A stretch of DNA of 64,000 bases, taken from contig NZ_CP027792.1 of assembly GCF_003013695.1 (NCBI RefSeq), positions 496,001-560,000 on the forward strand, written 5' to 3'. Below are positions 46,758-51,723 of this stretch, one piece after another; within the stretch, counting starts at the first letter, position 1, and every line of letters begins with the position of its first letter. The DNA comes from Pulveribacter suum (GTDB lineage: Bacteria; Pseudomonadota; Gammaproteobacteria; Burkholderiales; Burkholderiaceae_C). The translations under genes were made by a program, and so were the position numbers. The notes under the pieces are model-generated. The model had not been told where the DNA came from, made no database searches, and was given only the letters and a program-made list of their open reading frames with translations.

Positions 46758-48002
46758 ATGGAAGCTGCGACCACCGAGGGAACGTCGTTTCGCCACCAGC
46801 CGCGTGCCGTGGCGCTGGCCGGGTTGCTGTCCCTGGCGGTGGCCATGGGCGTGGGGCGCTTCGCCTTCACGCCGCTGCTGCCCATGATGCTGGCCGACGG
46901 CGTGGTCACCCTGGCCGGCGGAAGCTGGCTGGCCACGGCCAACTACATCGGCTACCTCGTCGGCGCGCTGGCGTGCATGGCGCTGCCCTGGGTGGCGCGC
47001 GGGTGGTACGGCCGCTGGCACCCGGCGCGGCTGGCGCGCGCGGGCCTGGCGGCCACGGTGCTGCTCACCGTGGCCATGGCGCTGCCGCTGCCGGCCACTT
47101 GGCCGCTGCTGCGTTTCGCCGCGGGCGTGGCCAGCGCCTTCGTGCTGCTCAACATCTCCTCGTGGTGCATGGTGCGGCTGAGCGTGCTGGGCCAGCCGGC
47201 GCTGAGCGCGCTGATCTTCTGCGGGCCGGGCGTGGGCATTGCGCTGACCGGCTTCATGACCAGCGCCATGGTCGCGGCGCACTGGCGCGCGGCGGCGGGC
47301 TGGGCGGCGTTCGCGTTGCTGGCGGCGCTGCTGTGCGCCCTGGTGCTGCCGGTGGTGCAGGGACGCGCGGCGCAGGCTTCCAATCTACAGGCGGGCGCGG
47401 CCGAAGGGGCGCCCGCGCCGCCGGCCAGCGCTACGGCGCGCACGCTGCACGCCATCGCCTACGGCTTCGCCGGCCTGGGCTACATCGTCACAGCCACCTT
47501 CCTGCCCGTGATCGCCCGCGGCGCGCTGCCGCCGGGATCGCCCTGGCCTGACCTGTTTTGGCCCATCTTCGGCGTGGCCGCGACGCTGGGCGCGGTGCTG
47601 GGCACGCGCGTGCGCGCCGCGTGGGACCGCCGCTGGCTGCTCGCGGCGTGCTACGCCATGCAGGCCGCGGGCATCGCACTGGGGCTGCACTGGCCCACGC
47701 CGGCGGGCTTCGCGCTGGGCAGCGCGCTGCTGGGCCTGCCGTTCACGGTGATCACGTTCTTCGGCTTCCAGGAGGCGCGGCGCCTGTGGCCAGCGGCGGT
47801 GGACAGCTTCGCCGGCCTGATCACGGCCACCTTCGGCCTGGGGCAGATCGCAGGCCCGCCCCTGGCGGCCGCGCTGGTCGCCGCCAGTGGCCAGGCCAGC
47901 GGCTTTGCGCGCGCATTGGCTGCGGCCGCTGCGGTGCTGGTGACGGGCGCTGCCATGTATGCGTTTTCGGCCTGGCGCTGGCCGCAGGGGTCCGTGGCCT
48001 GA
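46758..48002 (+). CDS. YbfB/YjiJ family MFS transporter
   Basis: A 414-residue MFS protein of the YbfB/YjiJ type with 12 hydrophobic segments. Family markers are SLAVAMGVGRFAFTPLLPMML and ANYIGYLVGALA near the start, SSWCMVRL and FCGPGVGIALTGFMTS in the middle. It is divergent from the LysR gene; the transported compound is unknown. Its stop is the left edge of the AT-richer island. Confidence 0.88.
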   Translation: MEAATTEGTSFRHQPRAVALAGLLSLAVAMGVGRFAFTPLLPMMLADGVVTLAGGSWLATANYIGYLVGALACMALPWVARGWYGRWHPARLARAGLAATVLLTVAMALPLPATWPLLRFAAGVASAFVLLNISSWCMVRLSVLGQPALSALIFCGPGVGIALTGFMTSAMVAAHWRAAAGWAAFALLAALLCALVLPVVQGRAAQASNLQAGAAEGAPAPPASATARTLHAIAYGFAGLGYIVTATFLPVIARGALPPGSPWPDLFWPIFGVAATLGAVLGTRVRAAWDRRWLLAACYAMQAAGIALGLHWPTPAGFALGSALLGLPFTVITFFGFQEARRLWPAAVDSFAGLITATFGLGQIAGPPLAAALVAASGQASGFARALAAAAAVLVTGAAMYAFSAWRWPQGSVA

Positions 48003-48205
48003 GCAAAAAAATTCGAACTCAAAAGAATTGGAATCTGACCCCAATTTTCCTGCAATTTTCCTAGCCGGGTTAGCTTGATGGTGCTTGAAAAAACTGTTAT
48101 ATCCAAATCAAGCAGTAAAAATCTAGTATGCGCGTATGCTAGTGAAATGATAGCTGTCCGCGTAGACTCACCAACGGCTAATGGCACGCTAAAATAAACC
48201 GACAT
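48003..48205 (-). other. AT-rich left flank of the cassette array, with a REP-like palindrome and a broken reading frame
   Basis: Immediately after the MFS gene base composition drops. AATTGGAATCTGACCCCAATT at 48025-48045 is an inverted repeat of the kind seen beside REP-associated transposases. A leftward frame opens at ATG 48205 (MSVYFSVPLAVGESTRTAI...) and runs through that palindrome into the antisense of the MFS gene. Only its first 45-50 residues lie in low-GC DNA, so it is probably the truncated start of a cassette gene. I do not recognise the peptide. Confidence 0.45.
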
Positions 48206-48235
48206 GGTATTAGGCCGTAAATACTACTGCCTAAG

Positions 48236-48838
48236 TTAGGCGTCGGACTTTACCAATGCTGTGGCAAGTATCTTCAGTTGCGCGTTCATCTTTTCGAGCT
48301 GCTCCAAGTATGGGCTTTTGATCATAGCCACCTTCGCAAATGGTTGAAGGTCGATCGGGTTAATTTCCGTGACTTGGCGGTTGGCAAACTCATAGCGTGC
48401 AGAAATGTTGAACGTGAGCGGGCAACGATCCTTATGGCTGAAGACTGTGTGGCCCACACCAAGAATGAAAGTGATCTCGCATCTTGGCGGTACAGAGGCG
48501 ATGGGTTGTGAGAAGGCAGTGTAGTTGCGTAAGTTGTGGGTCTCAGATTCTTCGGCGTTGAAGTAGAAATCCTGATCTAGCGTTAAGATGACATTCCTAG
48601 CGCTTGATGTGCCCGAATTGCGAACTCTGAGAAGCAATACTGAGTGCTCTTCCGCTGTCATCGGCGCTATCTCGATATACGGGCGAGTGGACGACTCGTG
48701 CTGAGCCCTCATGATGTCAGCCGATTCCCGATTCGCTCGGGCGATCTTTAGAGTAATGATGGCAACCAGCGCAGAAACAAGAACTGAACAGCCGCCGATA
48801 ATAGCAATAGCTAGATTGATGCTGTCAGCGGTGGTCAT
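48236..48838 (-). CDS. Cassette gene 4: membrane-anchored protein with a beta-rich domain
   Basis: A 200-residue protein. A single N-terminal membrane helix (residues 8-34, LAIAIIGGCSVLVSALVAIITL) is followed by a short charged helix and a soluble domain of about 140 residues with alternating hydrophobic strands (YIEIAPMTAEEHSVLLLRVRNSG, ARNVILTLD, CEITFILGVGHTVF, CPLTFNISARYEF). The pattern suggests an immunoglobulin-like beta sandwich; I do not recognise a family. ATG 48838 has AAGG upstream. The stop TAA is part of GCCTAAC, a canonical R'' box. It follows attC-1 in the direction of transcription. Confidence 0.8.
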   Translation of the reverse strand: MTTADSINLAIAIIGGCSVLVSALVAIITLKIARANRESADIMRAQHESSTRPYIEIAPMTAEEHSVLLLRVRNSGTSSARNVILTLDQDFYFNAEESETHNLRNYTAFSQPIASVPPRCEITFILGVGHTVFSHKDRCPLTFNISARYEFANRQVTEINPIDLQPFAKVAMIKSPYLEQLEKMNAQLKILATALVKSDA

Positions 48839-48858
48839 CGAATAACCTTGTTTACGAC

Positions 48859-48918
48859 GGCTGGCGCTTGAGTTAAGCCGCGCCGCGAAGCGGCGTTGCC
48901 TTGGACGAACTGTTGGAC
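48859..48918 (-). other. attC site 1, aadA-like, with a degenerate R' box
   Basis: On the minus strand: R'' GTCCAAC, then a near-perfect stem whose centre GCCGCTTCGCGGCGCGGC matches, from memory, the core of the aadA-type 59-base element, then TTAACTCAAGC. The final R' box reads GCCAGCC instead of GTTAGGC-type GTTRRRY, which should block recombination. It follows cassette gene 3 and precedes cassette gene 4. Confidence 0.8.
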
Positions 48919-49064
48919 CGAGGCTCTGCACCGAAATCGATGAGCGGCGGAAGTTTGACCAGTCCCGATTGAAATATGGCAAGGGCGGCGATGACTACCG
49001 TTAGCCAGACCATCCTTCTTTGGGTGGCAATGGACTCGGCGTGACGGCGGCTTTGTAACTGCAT
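48873..49064 (-). CDS. Cassette gene 3: 63-residue membrane peptide
   Basis: A 63-residue protein with one membrane helix (MVWLTVVIAALAIFQSGLV, residues 18-36) after a charged start. GGGGGA precedes ATG 49064. The coding region continues through the attC: the last ten residues (KATPLRGAA) are read from the attC stem and the stop lies inside it. That is common for true cassette genes and supports the boundary. Function unknown. Confidence 0.6.
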   Translation of the reverse strand: MQLQSRRHAESIATQRRMVWLTVVIAALAIFQSGLVKLPPLIDFGAEPRSNSSSKATPLRGAA

Positions 49065-49079
49065 AGATCCCCCATTGGT

Positions 49080-49137
49080 GGCTAACGCTGCCCCTCAGCC
49101 GACGCCGAAGGCGGTCGGCTGCAGCGGCTTGTTAAAG
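49080..49137 (-). other. attC site 2
   Basis: On the minus strand R'' is CTTTAAC and R' is GTTAGCC. The inner stem CAGCCGACCGCC/GGCGTCGGCTG flanks a TTC loop. The 26-base stem core differs from attC-3 at a single loop base. Outer arms differ. Confidence 0.75.
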
Positions 49138-49192
49138 CTGTGCAACGAGAGGGGAGATTTTGAGTTCCAACAAGCAGCAAAATACGCGAACC

Positions 49193-49558
49193 TTATTTCG
49201 AGATCAGCATGCTTAGGTGGGCAGAAAGTGCCAACATCTGCTGCTCATGCTCTGCAGCGGGCACTCGGCCCGGATTGGAGATGTTTGCGCGGATGGTCTC
49301 CAAGACAGCATTCGCCGCTTGTAGTTTTGCGAGACTCGCCTTCCCTTCGATGACCTGCGGCGTCGAATCCAAAATTCCTGTGGCGGACTCGATCATTTTT
49401 CGCTGCGAACCCTCTACGGATTCCTTAATTTGCGCAAGCAGACGGTCCGCGCGGTCTGCATCTTTCTTAGCCGAGGCGGCAAACCACACTGAAATGATAA
49501 CGGACCCAAGTGGAATCAGCCAATCCTTGAGAAGCGCGAGAAGAGAAGCCTCGTTCAT
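49193..49558 (-). CDS. Cassette gene 2: membrane helix plus coiled-coil protein
   Basis: A 121-residue protein. Residues 8-28 (LLKDWLIPLGSVIISVWFAASA) form one membrane helix. The rest is a long polar helical stretch (KKDADRADRLLAQIKESVEGSQRKMIESATGIL; LAKLQAANAVLETIRANI) likely to be a coiled coil. ATG 49558 has GAGGGA at a good distance, better than ATG 49567. attC-2 lies 55 bases beyond its stop. No family recognised; structurally it resembles a small sensor or scaffold. Confidence 0.75.
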   Translation of the reverse strand: MNEASLLALLKDWLIPLGSVIISVWFAASAKKDADRADRLLAQIKESVEGSQRKMIESATGILDSTPQVIEGKASLAKLQAANAVLETIRANISNPGRVPAAEHEQQMLALSAHLSMLISK

Positions 49559-49584
49559 GCAGCACATCCCTCAGTAGAGAAAAG

Positions 49585-49642
49585 TTTTAACGCCCTGAAT
49601 TCAGCCGACGCCGTAGGCGGTCGGCTGCGATAAATGTTAGGT
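49585..49642 (-). other. attC site 3
   Basis: On the minus strand R'' is ACCTAAC, overlapping the stop of cassette gene 1, and R' is GTTAAAA. The stem CAGCCGACCGCC/GGCGTCGGCTG is identical to attC-2 apart from one loop base. The bases between R'' and the stem (ATTTATCG) differ from attC-2. Confidence 0.8.
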
Positions 49643-49903
49643 GTTTTTTGAAAACCAAATTTCTAAAAATCTTTTCTCACTTGCTTTAAACCAAAGCCAT
49701 GCAAGAGTCCATATGGCTCCGGAAATGAAGCTCAGTACTGCAAACACAAACCATTGGTTGATTGACTTATCTGTGTTTTTATCGTTCATAAGAAAGACTA
49801 GTTCTTTAAACGGTTCTGCTAGGCCGGCTGCGATAAAAAATAAGAAGCCAGCAGCTAACATTGTGCTTAGGAAGCAGATGAATAATGAAGTTGTTTTTTT
49901 CAT
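49637..49903 (-). CDS. Cassette gene 1: 88-residue two-helix membrane protein
   Basis: An 88-residue protein in AT-rich DNA, with two hydrophobic segments (residues 5-29, SLFICFLSTMLAAGFLFFIAAGL, and 50-72, WFVFAVLSFISGAIWTLAWLWF) linked by a polar loop (MNDKNTDKSINQ). Its stop codon TAA is within the R'' box of attC-3. Codon usage differs sharply from the chromosome, in line with foreign origin. Family unknown; small two-helix proteins may be holin- or immunity-like. Confidence 0.75.
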   Translation of the reverse strand: MKKTTSLFICFLSTMLAAGFLFFIAAGLAEPFKELVFLMNDKNTDKSINQWFVFAVLSFISGAIWTLAWLWFKASEKRFLEIWFSKNT

Positions 49904-50265
49904 AATGCTTTCAATAGCTAACTAGATCTAGACAACAAAACAACGCGCGACTTGAGTCTTCCAATCTCCGGCCGCTCGCTTCTCCTACCTCTCATCTGCT
50001 ACCCCTGCCGCCTTTTACGCAAACCTAACGATTTGCGGTAGAACCTTCGTTTGTGAGGCGTTGCAATTTTGCGAACCACCACTTGCGAGCCACACAAACC
50101 CCTGTGCTTGAGTACCAGTGATAAGTGCTCCCAAGGTGCCGCTTGGAAGTCGATGCGTTTCTCTTTGTATCACAGCACAGCCATAAGAAACCCAGCGTGA
50201 AGCTGCCGCCACGCTGTTGCCCGCCCCTGTATCCTGCTCCGACCCCTCAACCTCCAAAGGCCGGC
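49904..50265. other. 362-base non-coding right flank of the cassette array
   Basis: The left part is AT-rich and holds GCTAACTAG (49917-49925). At 50019-50038 CGCAAA and TTTGCG flank ACCTAAC, which on the minus strand is GTTAGGT, a perfect GTTRRRY box; this could be an attI or attC remnant. No integrase gene, no full attC stem and no convincing promoter were found. From about 50130 on, composition returns to that of the chromosome ahead of the symporter gene. Confidence 0.4.
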
Positions 50266-51723
50266 ATGAACCCGTCAGCCCCCACCCCCAGCCCACTCTT
50301 CACCGGCCCCTTCTTCGAAAACTTCCTCGTCCTCACCCGCTGGCAGACGCTGGTCTGGGTGGCGCTGCTGCTGTTGGCCTTCTGGTGGCTGGCGCGGCTG
50401 AAAAAAGCCGGCAAGAGCTTTTCGCTGCGCATGATGGCCGCCCTCGGCCTGGGCCTGCTGCTCGGCCTGTCGCTGCAAGGGCTGGAGGGCATGCCGCCGG
50501 AGGCCAGCGCCGCGCTGCGTGAATCGGCCACGTGGTATGGCCTGTTCGGGCGCGGCTTCGTGGCGTTGATCCGCATGCTGGTCATCCCGCTGGTGTTCGT
50601 CTCCATCGTCAAGGTGGTGCTCGACCATTCGGGCGAGGAGTACCTGTCGAAGGTGGCGGTGCGCGGCATCTTCTGGCTGCTGGCGACGACGGCCATTGCG
50701 GCGCTGGTGGGCATTGCGCTGGCCAATGCGTTTGGCCTCGGGCAGGGCACGGTGTACCAGGCGGGCAAGGCGGCGCTGCGCGAGCAGACCACCCTGGTCA
50801 ATATCCTGGTCAACCAGATCCCGGCCAACATCGTCTCGGCCATGAACGGCAACAACGTGGTCGGGTTGGTCATCTTCTCCGCCCTGCTGGGCGTGGGCGC
50901 GCAGCGGGCGGCGGCGCGCTTTCCGGCGCCGGTGGCGGCATTCCGCGGCTTCATCGACGGGCTGCACGCGGTGGTCATGAGCGTGACGACCATGGTCATC
51001 CGCCTGCTGCCCTACGGCGTGACAGCGCTGATGGGCGGCACCCTCATGAGCAACGGCGTGCCGGCCATCCTGGACGTATCGGGCTTCATCGTGGCGATTT
51101 ACGTGGCATCGGTGGCGATGGTGGCGGTGCACCTGCTGCTGGTGGCAGCCAACGGGCTGTCGCCGTTCACCTACCTCGCCAAATCGCGCGAGACGCTGGT
51201 CATGGGGTTTTCCAGCCGCTCGTCGCTGGGCACGCTGCCGCTCACCATCGCCACCCTGACCGGGCGCATGGGCGTGTCGGCCGGCTCGGCCAATCTGGTC
51301 GGGTCGCTGGGCGCCACCATGGGCATGAATGGCTGCGCGGGTTTCTTCCCGGCCATGCTGGTGGTGATGGTGGGGCACATGGTGGGGCTGGAGCTGAATT
51401 TGCAGTTCTACCTGATGACGCTGATCGTGGTCATCGTCGGCTCCATCGGCGTGGCGGGCATTCCAGGCACCGCCACCATCGCCGCCACCATCGCCGCCAC
51501 CATCGCGCTGTCGGGCATGGGGCTGGGCGAGCATTTCGCGCTGATCGGCATGGTGCTGGCCATCGACCCGATCATCGACATGGCGCGCACGCTGACCAAC
51601 GTCTCGGGCTCCATGACGGCGGCGCTGATCACCGACAAGCAGGTGGGCAGCTTCGACCGGCAGGTGTACGCCGACCCCGGGGCGCAGGTCAACGCGTCGG
51701 GGCTGGAGCTGGATGCGCTGTAG
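50266..51723 (+). CDS. Dicarboxylate/amino acid:cation symporter, TcyP-like
   Basis: A 485-residue DAACS symporter with about eight membrane helices and two re-entrant loops. FSSRSSLGTLPLTI, GATMGMNGCAGFFPAMLVVMVGHMVG and IIDMARTLTNVSGSMTAALIT line up with the E. coli cystine symporter TcyP (YdjN) more closely than with GltP. It therefore probably imports L-cystine or a related amino acid with sodium or protons. AAAGG precedes ATG 50266. It stands directly beside the cassette array. Confidence 0.85.
   Translation: MNPSAPTPSPLFTGPFFENFLVLTRWQTLVWVALLLLAFWWLARLKKAGKSFSLRMMAALGLGLLLGLSLQGLEGMPPEASAALRESATWYGLFGRGFVALIRMLVIPLVFVSIVKVVLDHSGEEYLSKVAVRGIFWLLATTAIAALVGIALANAFGLGQGTVYQAGKAALREQTTLVNILVNQIPANIVSAMNGNNVVGLVIFSALLGVGAQRAAARFPAPVAAFRGFIDGLHAVVMSVTTMVIRLLPYGVTALMGGTLMSNGVPAILDVSGFIVAIYVASVAMVAVHLLLVAANGLSPFTYLAKSRETLVMGFSSRSSLGTLPLTIATLTGRMGVSAGSANLVGSLGATMGMNGCAGFFPAMLVVMVGHMVGLELNLQFYLMTLIVVIVGSIGVAGIPGTATIAATIAATIALSGMGLGEHFALIGMVLAIDPIIDMARTLTNVSGSMTAALITDKQVGSFDRQVYADPGAQVNASGLELDAL

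Follow-up and report, generated by a model that had tools for sequence, protein, structure and literature searches.

An integrase-less cassette array with an attI-like edge in Pulveribacter suum: a proposed satellite integron, probably served in trans in the past

How did four small genes, separated by three attC sites, come to lie on the chromosome of Pulveribacter suum without an integrase gene at their side? The array belongs to a 64,000-nucleotide stretch of DNA (C1:496001-560000), hereafter the window. It is formally a CALIN, as a first-pass annotation had proposed, since it has at least two attC sites and the only integrase gene of TIGR02249 level lies about 0.58 Mb off, the contig being taken as circular. 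According to the passages of PMC9024848 that deal with them, CALINs have at least two attC sites with no integrase nearby, are proposed to be degraded integrons, and roughly equal complete integrons in number (2961 versus 2760). The definition given in these passages ignores attI, whereas the window locus, which has the same attC sites and the same lack of a nearby integrase, also has an attI and a leader, and sites of this kind are found repeatedly in the family. We propose that the locus is, very probably, an integron platform with its own landing site; with less assurance, we favour the reading that it is a satellite integron (attI and array, no integrase), formerly served in trans and now probably frozen.

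The attC sites and their cassettes

The integron background used here comprises the G/TT crossover, the names of the R and L boxes, and the roles of attI and of the cassette promoter. The features of the array and its left neighbour are as follows.

46758..48002, plus strand: MFS transporter gene (YbfB type), left neighbour (Pfam MFS_4, E 4e-68)
48229..48241, minus strand: left end of the array, an R''-like GCCTAAC palindrome with the stop of the 200-aa ORF
48236..48838, minus strand: cassette ORF of 200 aa, no family found
48859-48918, minus strand: attC 1 (covariance model, 31.6 bits, E 3.9e-6), probably inactive, R' core GTT changed to GCC
48873..49064, minus strand: small cassette ORF of 63 aa, stop inside attC 1
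49080-49137, minus strand: attC 2 (covariance model, 37.6 bits, E 9.3e-8)
49193..49567, minus strand: cassette ORF of 124 aa (121 from an internal ATG)
49585-49642, minus strand: attC 3 (covariance model, 37.4 bits, E 1e-7)
49637..49903, minus strand: attI-proximal cassette ORF of 88 aa that terminates within the attC 3 R'' box

All three sites pointed out in the first pass were retrieved, in a single orientation, by a covariance model whose 31 training attC sites all lie outside the window (E 9e-8, 1e-7 and 4e-6); at E<=10 there were just two further matches, of 10.7 bits (opposite strand of 49080-49137) and 9.2 bits. The near-identity of the stems of attC 2 and attC 3 was borne out (one different base in 28), as was the drop in GC content, which is 0.49 in the two kilobases of the array versus 0.64-0.76 in the two neighbouring kilobases on each side. 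Three minus-strand ORFs end in attC-like sequence, where the first pass had noted two: the stop at 49637 lies within the attC 3 R'' box, the one at 48873 inside attC 1, and the one at 48236 in the R''-like box at the left end of the array; the 124-aa ORF has its stop (49193) outside its attC. The expected folding held for two sites (z -3.3/-3.4 and -2.7/-2.7 against shuffles), with none of 200 shuffles folding as well as attC 2 on either strand, and was less clear for attC 1, which folds not clearly better than its shuffles (z -0.95 and -1.74 for the two strands). Because of this unclear fold, and because its R' box reads GCC in place of the GTT kept by the other two sites, attC 1 is probably worn out. 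In the 19 listed matches that cover this site, many plasmids, some annotated at aadB, carry sequence 84-91% identical to it, and attC 3 has one plasmid match, at 90.9%, among the matches listed. The left-most cassette has no recognisable or complete attC (best score 7.7 bits with filters off).

None of the cassette ORFs falls in a Pfam or NCBIfam family at the cut-offs. Apart from itself, the 200-aa ORF has 18 relatives, of which one belongs to Undibacterium parvum and the rest sit on contigs no longer than about 15 kb; the 124-aa ORF retrieved 38 proteins, one of them 98% identical and one in Vibrio parahaemolyticus; the 88-aa ORF has four relatives, one in Acidovorax sp. In the arrays compared, the window cassettes did not recur beyond attC-sized matches. 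A sigma-70 scan of 48000-50300 yielded fewer sites than shuffled sequence (one versus a mean of 2.0).

The integrase-proximal edge of the array

The feature reaches further right, to about 50.2 kb, where the following elements precede the next gene.

49918..49933, plus strand: attI core, CTAACTAGATCTAGAC, whose counterpart is CTAACTAGAATTAGAC in most intI-bearing sites of the genus
49918..50042, plus strand: attI with its leader, ending where the start codon of the lost intI would lie
50043..50210, plus strand: possible decayed intI 5' end, collinear with indels
50266..51723, plus strand: SDF (dicarboxylate) symporter gene, right neighbour (Pfam SDF, E 2e-86)

First, the attI-leader model R2, trained on seven intI-bearing sites with the window site unseen, matches 49918-50042 with 14.5 bits (E 0.114 over the whole genome), and an nhmmer profile, from whose training the window site was likewise absent, has its best match of the window at the same place (E 0.099, starting at model position 1); by score alone, with E about 0.1 in both searches, the window attI-leader is weak. 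Second, all three R2 matches at E<=5 in this genome lie beside an attC cluster. Third, local alignment of the window region scores 71 against the attI-intI region of the home integron (maximum of 300 shuffles, 66) and 70 against that of the genus member G001 (300 shuffles, maximum 61); counted against the satellite reading, the scores for G008 (56, with shuffles reaching 59) and G014 (42, with shuffles reaching 57) leave two of the four alignments inside the shuffle range. Fourth, the core-to-leader spacing is home-like. Further right, a CGTTTC..TTGTATCACA stretch in 50043..50210 resembles the intI codons RRFILYHN, and a TTGTATCAC piece follows two other stubs of the genus; neither tblastn nor an intI DNA profile found an intI remnant there. 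Together, these sequence comparisons indicate that the right edge is, in the expected place and orientation, a degenerate attI with the leader found ahead of intI in related genomes, followed by a possible decayed intI 5' end. As compared with a complete integron, the locus thus has an attI, degenerate, at the integrase-proximal end (49918-50042), and no functional intI was found beside the array by tblastn or with the DNA profile downstream of attI. We dropped the idea that this edge is merely the upstream region of the symporter gene, since the alignments to home and G001 beat their shuffles and R2 matches there.

The edge bears directly on the out-of-place integration suggested in the first pass. 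In such an event, free cassettes would have been integrated by the integrase at a chance position flanked by the MFS and symporter genes, as an attG-type insertion. The locus is indeed separate and far from the home integron, attG insertions are mentioned in the literature, and they resemble the window array in placing cassettes without an integrase elsewhere on the chromosome; however, attG sites belong to neither the attI nor the attC type, as stated in the parts of PMC12444791 that concern them, whereas the window border is attI-like, with an intI leader and home-like spacing. Furthermore, the sister species has an orthologous, decayed stub. An out-of-place origin is therefore unsupported and very improbable, and insertion at an attG site was discarded in view of the attI-like border. 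The other origin suggested earlier, an array cut off from a sedentary integron, comes nearer; a separate platform that lost its own intI in place describes the locus better. Such a platform would have kept its attI, leader and cassettes while losing its own integrase gene.

The home integron and the sister species

In agreement with the first pass, no intact intI lies in the window. The single match in the genome over the TIGR02249 integron-integrase cut-off (C1:3319596-3320558) is about 0.58 Mb from the window if the single contig is circular. This home integrase gene has two internal stops, whereas the copy of G001 is intact, and the master integrase of the other genus members is 91-93% identical to that of G001. 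The master integrase gene adjoins a gene that we take to be fabF-like. The home integrase is now truncated before the catalytic tyrosine, so the window array is probably no longer refreshed and now frozen. The home sedentary chromosomal integron resembles the window locus in its type of attI core, its leader and its spacing, and its attC sites are found by the same model; it differs from it by its (broken) intI frame and its 11 attC matches, against three attC and no intI in the window. Bit scores favour home over satellite attC, since the model R1 was trained on nine home attC of this genome. The window cassettes gave no HSP against the home array. Another array of the genome (C1:654350-654993) has two attC and no R2 match.

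As for a satellite, the window has attI and array, and the integrase gene, with its two internal stops, stands elsewhere. We consider it somewhat probable that the window site was served in trans, an integrase elsewhere in the genome acting on the window attI; we infer that the master integrase would have refilled this site. A cassette may have moved to the window attI after intI was lost: the sister species has a different adjacent ORF, but no window cassette is common to the home array, and clear cases come only from other genomes. The sister stub, which is more decayed, aligns to the window stub with a score of 96 (maximum of 500 shuffles, 49); it never scored above shuffles against four intI-bearing sites, and neither a recognisable core, nor an R2 or nhmmer match, nor an attC was found there. 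The locus of G002 is without array, attI region and symporter. The DNA of the MFS transporter is matched in all five genus genomes, and that of the symporter over more than 51 bases only in G000 and G001 within the genus. Some of the differences in cassette content from one species to another could stem from losses out of an older and longer array.

Two other histories of the platform have to be weighed. According to the first, which we regard as unlikely, though the least so of the alternatives, the locus is only a fossil, i.e. an ordinary integron that lost its intI long ago, with cassettes dating from the time of the cis integrase and no trans action. The degenerate attI, the attC deprived of its GTT, the broken home integrase and the lack of a cassette common to the home array all fit this view; against it, the orthologous stub of the sister species adjoins a different ORF, and cassettes have entered other attI sites of the family that lack intI. 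According to the second, the array and its attI were copied from home by homologous recombination or a transposon, and the locus never was an independent platform. The home type of attI and leader is consistent with a copy, and the 2008 survey PMC2426708, as far as its relevant passage goes, ascribes many pseudo-integrons to intragenomic duplication; however, no home-like stretch beyond attC size is left in the array. Moreover, another platform of this kind, at mmsB, occurs in two genera and platforms can therefore be old. A copy is thus highly improbable, and we retain a platform of its own, probably served in trans.

attI platforms across the family

The gene name mmsB is our own reading of the sequence, as an assumption. 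At this platform, G000 and G004 have the stub in common, as well as 152 bp at the distal end (72%), with no match of cassette length, and decayed versions are visible in G001 and G003. Five genus genomes contain 11 R2 matches at E<=5, namely five home sites, all belonging to the training set of the model, and six others, each 267-429 bp from an attC.

In the family, we counted 59 attI-leader sites in 32 of 299 genomes, 15 of which have two or more. Leaving out five of the 59 (homes of G000-G003 and G014) and adding two sites of G004, we classified 56 sites by hand as having a full intI (13), a partial or broken one (16), or none (27), the last class being defined by the absence of a tblastn match at E<=1e-3. 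G147:2730651 was counted as full, though its intI is about 1.1 kb off, and G157, with one in-frame TAG, as partial; the intI of G155 is cut by the contig end, and for four sites out of the 56 (G161:C15, G300:1051218, G248:703689 and G311:1075791) the match is confined to the leader end of the model. The intI DNA profile, applied to 24 of the 27 intI-less sites as well, revealed a remnant at G244:247851 (E 7.8e-7) and weak matches in G085 (E 0.0023 and 0.022) and G195 (E 0.18). An attC on the expected strand was found within 3 kb of all 13 full, 13 of the 16 partial or broken, and 22 of the 27 intI-less sites; this tally omits one weak plus-strand row (L227, 754-811) and five rows of L184, and the four rows on the unexpected strand belong to L209, where two sites face each other. 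Counted against trans service, nine of the 27 intI-less sites belong to genomes in which no integrase exceeds the cut-off. The score of the window site in this survey is circular because the model used, R3, was trained on satellites including it.

Between orthologous satellites, conservation is 0.82-1.00 in the leader and 0.50-0.63 in the spacer (shuffled, 0.48-0.49); in home sites it is 0.86-0.96 and 0.68-0.90, respectively. This leader conservation is suggestive only, because the models that retrieved the sites need a leader and because of the decayed mmsB versions in G001 and G003. We do not claim that satellites have a defined end at the start codon of intI, since the models were built to stop at the ATG and pieces of intI persist in some satellites. 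We suggest, at slightly better than even confidence, that the Comamonadaceae have distributed integrons, in which one integrase gene would serve several intI-less chromosomal attI platforms, and that the window array is one of these, left isolated when the master integrase was lost. The attI core and the leader would be kept while the spacer between them drifts, therefore yielding several independent arrays per genome with one cassette pool.

Among the open-access literature matches listed, we found no paper on intI-less attI platforms. Among the closest known systems are the Xanthomonas chromosomal integrons, for which the passages of PMC12444791 on this subject describe, as in the window, the loss of intI and CALINs at conserved loci, and state that CALINs are mobilisable in trans by a functional IntI; unlike the present case, these passages report neither attI at the CALINs nor a cassette common to home and CALIN. 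In the present family, attI platforms recur per genome, and identities bounded by cassette ends are seen. If many CALINs carry an unrecognised attI, they would be extra landing sites and not just debris, and one integrase could feed several arrays.

Similar integrase-less platforms in related bacteria appear to have been refilled by an integrase elsewhere in the genome. In the closed genome of G244, the first cassettes of the intI-less attI at mmsB and of the integron with intI are identical over 297 bp, and the block is bounded at GTT crossovers, while the attI and leader of the two loci share 79 identities in 135 columns. In G248, home and satellite are 98.3% identical over 653 bp, the right end being GTTAG and the left end lying inside an attC. 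Counted against trans service, stretches of at least 150 bp common to a satellite and its own home array were found in four of 18 satellites and three of nine genomes, at most 3 kb of most arrays being compared, and part of this sharing is a repeated non-coding cassette family. Gene conversion, instead of integrase action, is an improbable source of the G244 and G248 identities. The mutual resemblance of attC sites and of non-coding cassettes would supply the homology, and the G248 block does begin inside an attC; in G244, however, only seven identical bases precede the block, which ends at the GTT of an attC. Finally, the cassette at position 1 of the G248 satellite is 99.6% identical, over 278 bp with GTTAG at both ends, to an inner cassette of a G244 satellite.

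attC sites of the window and the other arrays of the genome

The first-pass annotation had placed three attC-like sites, in one orientation, between small leftward genes at 48235-49930. A covariance model of attC (R1), trained on 31 sites from the home integron (the one at the intI gene) of this genome, G000, and from five relatives, the window sites being excluded, matched all three at these places on the minus strand, with scores of 37.6, 37.4 and 31.6 bits, everything else in the 64-kb window reaching at most 10.7 bits. With filters off, R1 found no further attC over 47950-50300, and the left end of the array presented only an R''-like palindrome (7.7 bits). The attC at 48859-48918 has an R' box lacking GTT and a fold that is not clearly better than those of shuffled sequences. 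When 48003-50265 was compared with plasmids by blastn, 2901 records matched, none of them across most of the query; among the 20 matches listed, all attC-sized, 19 fell at 48859-48918 (84-91%; some of these carry an aadB annotation) and a single one at the third attC (90.9%). These matches provide independent support for the identity of the sites as attC. The GC content of the array is 0.49, against 0.64-0.76 in the surroundings. The cassette ORFs have no Pfam or NCBIfam matches at the cut-offs, and the relatives of three of them lie mostly on short contigs.

G000 is a single contig of 3.36 Mb, with the window at C1:496001-560000. Of the named relatives found, Oryzisolibacter propanilivorax (Comamonadaceae) is the closest; its DNA is identical to that of the genus member G001 over the two stretches compared. 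The window indeed lacks an intact integrase gene, as initially noticed. The only G000 gene over the integron-integrase cut-off lies at C1:3319596-3320558 and carries two in-frame stops. Its translation meets the first stop at ...TVQ*LLGHADVSTTMIYTHVL, where G001 has no stop and reads through; the tyrosine just after this stop is presumably a catalytic residue. The remaining integrase-model matches (at most 80.5 bits) look like XerC/XerD relatives. In the whole genome R1 gave 20 matches (E<=1), grouped in four clusters.

attC arrays of G000 (R1 matches)
Home array: 11 attC
C1:2143003-2144778: four attC
Window array: three attC
C1:654350-654993 (locus L137, 5351-5994), without intI: two attC

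The attC scores are 20-57 bits in the satellites (arrays without their own intI) and 22.9-80.8 bits in the home array, nine sites of which were in the training set. The attC pair at C1:654350-654993 adjoins sequence that resembles non-coding cassettes from the home array. Cassettes of one family, about 250-320 bp long and with no obvious ORF, are found repeatedly, both inside single arrays and in arrays of different genera (loci L086, L093, L097, L137, L152 and others). A motif around TTGGAATCTGACCCCAATTTT (window 48016-48055), perhaps a REP-like repeat, has near-identical short copies at C1:1021422-1021452 (97%) and C1:652046-652076 (94%), one of which is separated by about 2 kb from a different attC pair. 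An SAH riboswitch (RF01057, 9186-9266, 57.6 bits) is the only feature of the window to pass the Rfam gathering thresholds.

A candidate attI and leader at the right edge of the array

Genus members, and some of the relatives, have a common core, CTAACTAGAATTAGAC, 5' of intI; a leader, ATTTAGGCAAACCTAAAAATTTGCGGATG, follows about 80 bases on. Their counterparts in the window are as follows:

49918, core, CTAACTAGATCTAGAC
ending at 50041, leader, TTTTACGCAAACCTAACGATTTGCGGTAG

Their spacing is home-like, and their orientation is that expected for a leftward-pointing array. In local alignments with attI-intI regions, the window scored 71 against the G000 home and 70 against G001, in each case higher than any of 300 shuffles (maxima 66 and 61), but fell inside the shuffle range against the relatives G008 (56, maximum 59) and G014 (42, maximum 57). 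With an nhmmer profile made from the starts of eight attI-intI regions, the best match of the window was this right edge (E 0.099, beginning at model position 1); the G000 mmsB array, an intI-less attI array beside a gene read as mmsB, gave E 1.5e-9. R2, a sequence-only attI-leader model of seven intI-bearing sites, was run on the five genus genomes (E<=5) and returned 11 matches, namely the five home sites, all in its training set, and six others, each 267-429 bp from an attC. The array at C1:654350-654993 had no attI match in this search.

R2 matches other than home sites
G000 window: E 0.114
G000 mmsB: E 1.5e-7
G004 mmsB: E 0.0026
G004:2106354: E 2.6e-8
G003:2744632: E 2.9e-5
G003:114746, beside a truncated intI: E 1.6e-5

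The window attI is marginal by score alone but convincing by virtue of where it lies.

attI-leader sites in the family and cassettes common to several arrays

A broader model (R3), built from 11 sites including satellites and the window, was run on 299 family genomes with the stricter filters of a search of that size (E<=0.01). It gave 59 matches in 32 of the 299 genomes, 15 of which have two or more, with a maximum of five. We classified 56 sites (54 of the R3 set and two of G004) by tblastn and integrase-profile matches: 3' of the leader, intI is full at 13, partial or broken at 16 and missing at 27. An attC occurs within 3 kb, on the expected strand, at 13/13, 13/16 and 22/27 of these sites, respectively. 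An intI DNA profile, applied to 24 of the 27 intI-less sites, detected one remnant (G244:247851, E 7.8e-7), with three more sites giving weaker signals. An integron integrase was matched at E<=1e-28 in 27 of 33 genomes and over the cut-off in 22; genomes with an integrase over the cut-off hold 18 of the 27 intI-less sites, including two in G000 with its broken gene, and the other nine sites are in genomes without one.

Long intI-less arrays
G248:2179956: 9 attC in 3 kb
G244:3773239: 8 attC
G161:C19: 8 attC

The genome G085 has five attI-leader sites, two of them facing each other on contig C8, but lacks any integron-integrase match at E<=1e-28. Between orthologous intI-less sites, leader identity is 0.82-1.00 and spacer identity 0.50-0.63, near the shuffled value (0.48-0.49); between home sites, spacer identity is 0.68-0.90. 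This suggests that the leader is under selection, perhaps as a cassette promoter, although the search models themselves are biased towards sites with a good leader.

We propose that integron platforms occupy several chromosomal places in the family, that they have often lost their own intI while retaining attI and leader, and that cassettes can be inserted at these intI-less attI sites in trans, by an integrase encoded elsewhere. In G000 the master integrase is now broken, and the window attI may have been refilled in trans. The cassettes bear on this proposal as follows. First, in G244 (one contig), the first cassette (297 bp) of the intI-less mmsB attI (C1:681096-681214) is identical at every base to that of the intI-bearing integron (attI C1:2552579-2552698), the cassette being present in three copies within the extracted stretch. 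The identity starts 7 bases before the core end and stops at the attC GTT, and the attI and leader differ between satellite and home (79 identities in 135 columns). Second, the G248 satellite begins with a cassette that matches an inner cassette of a G244 satellite (99.6% over 278 bp, GTTAG at both ends), and a 653-bp stretch is common to the G248 home and satellite arrays (98.3%), with GTTAG at the right end and the left end within an attC. Such features are what an integrase would be expected to leave when it inserts cassettes at intI-less platforms or exchanges cassettes with them. Third, the pattern does not hold everywhere: with up to 3 kb of most arrays compared, four of 18 satellites, in three of nine genomes, have at least 150 bp in common with the home array of their own genome; the window satellite has nothing in common with its home array in this comparison.

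Two genera have the mmsB platform (G000, G004, G244; flank identity 80-88%); G001 and G003 seem to retain decayed versions, and none was observed in G002. The G000 and G004 mmsB arrays have in common the stub (the remnant of attI and leader where intI was lost) and 152 bp at the distal end (72%), with no cassette-length match, though both lack intI there.

CALINs (attC clusters without integrase), intI decay and in-trans mobilisation are already described in passages of earlier reports (PMC12444791, PMC2426708, PMC9024848). Searches of an open-access library brought up no description of attI platforms that lack intI. According to a passage of the IntegronFinder 2.0 paper, attI sites other than those of class 1 have been poorly described and are therefore not detected (PMC9024848), which would explain how such platforms could be overlooked.

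Probable loss of intI and orthologous loci in the genus

Past the leader, 50043-50210 has a weak collinear resemblance to the 5' end of intI, clearest at CGTTTC..TTGTATCACA, and the TTGTATCAC piece also lies behind the stubs G003:2744632 and G004:2106354. We regard this stretch as only a possible decayed intI 5' end, because neither tblastn nor the intI DNA profile detects a remnant in the window.

Window 49905-50157 aligns with 5606-5890 of L006, the sister-species locus, with a score of 96 (best of 500 shuffles, 49), and on this alignment the sister-species region is orthologous to the window stub. In the latter species the core is not recognisable, R2 gives no match to the stub, and its alignments with four intI-bearing sites are all within the shuffle range. 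The place of the array is taken there by IS-like pieces and a single minus-strand ORF (262 aa, low GC), with no attC (R1); the ORFs of L006 3317-4690, part of this place, were read as IS-type transposase pieces. In G002, only a few bases separate the MFS gene, which borders the window array on the left, from the gene located beyond the symporter in the window. In G003 and G004, other sequence follows the MFS gene (760 and 1432 bases, respectively), and the symporter has no DNA matches beyond short pieces. G003 also has a second, truncated intI (C1:113948-114866, locus L252) that is broadly of the same type, with 72% identity to the G001 intI over 262 aa, and accompanied by a leader and one attC, as if caught at an intermediate stage of intI loss.
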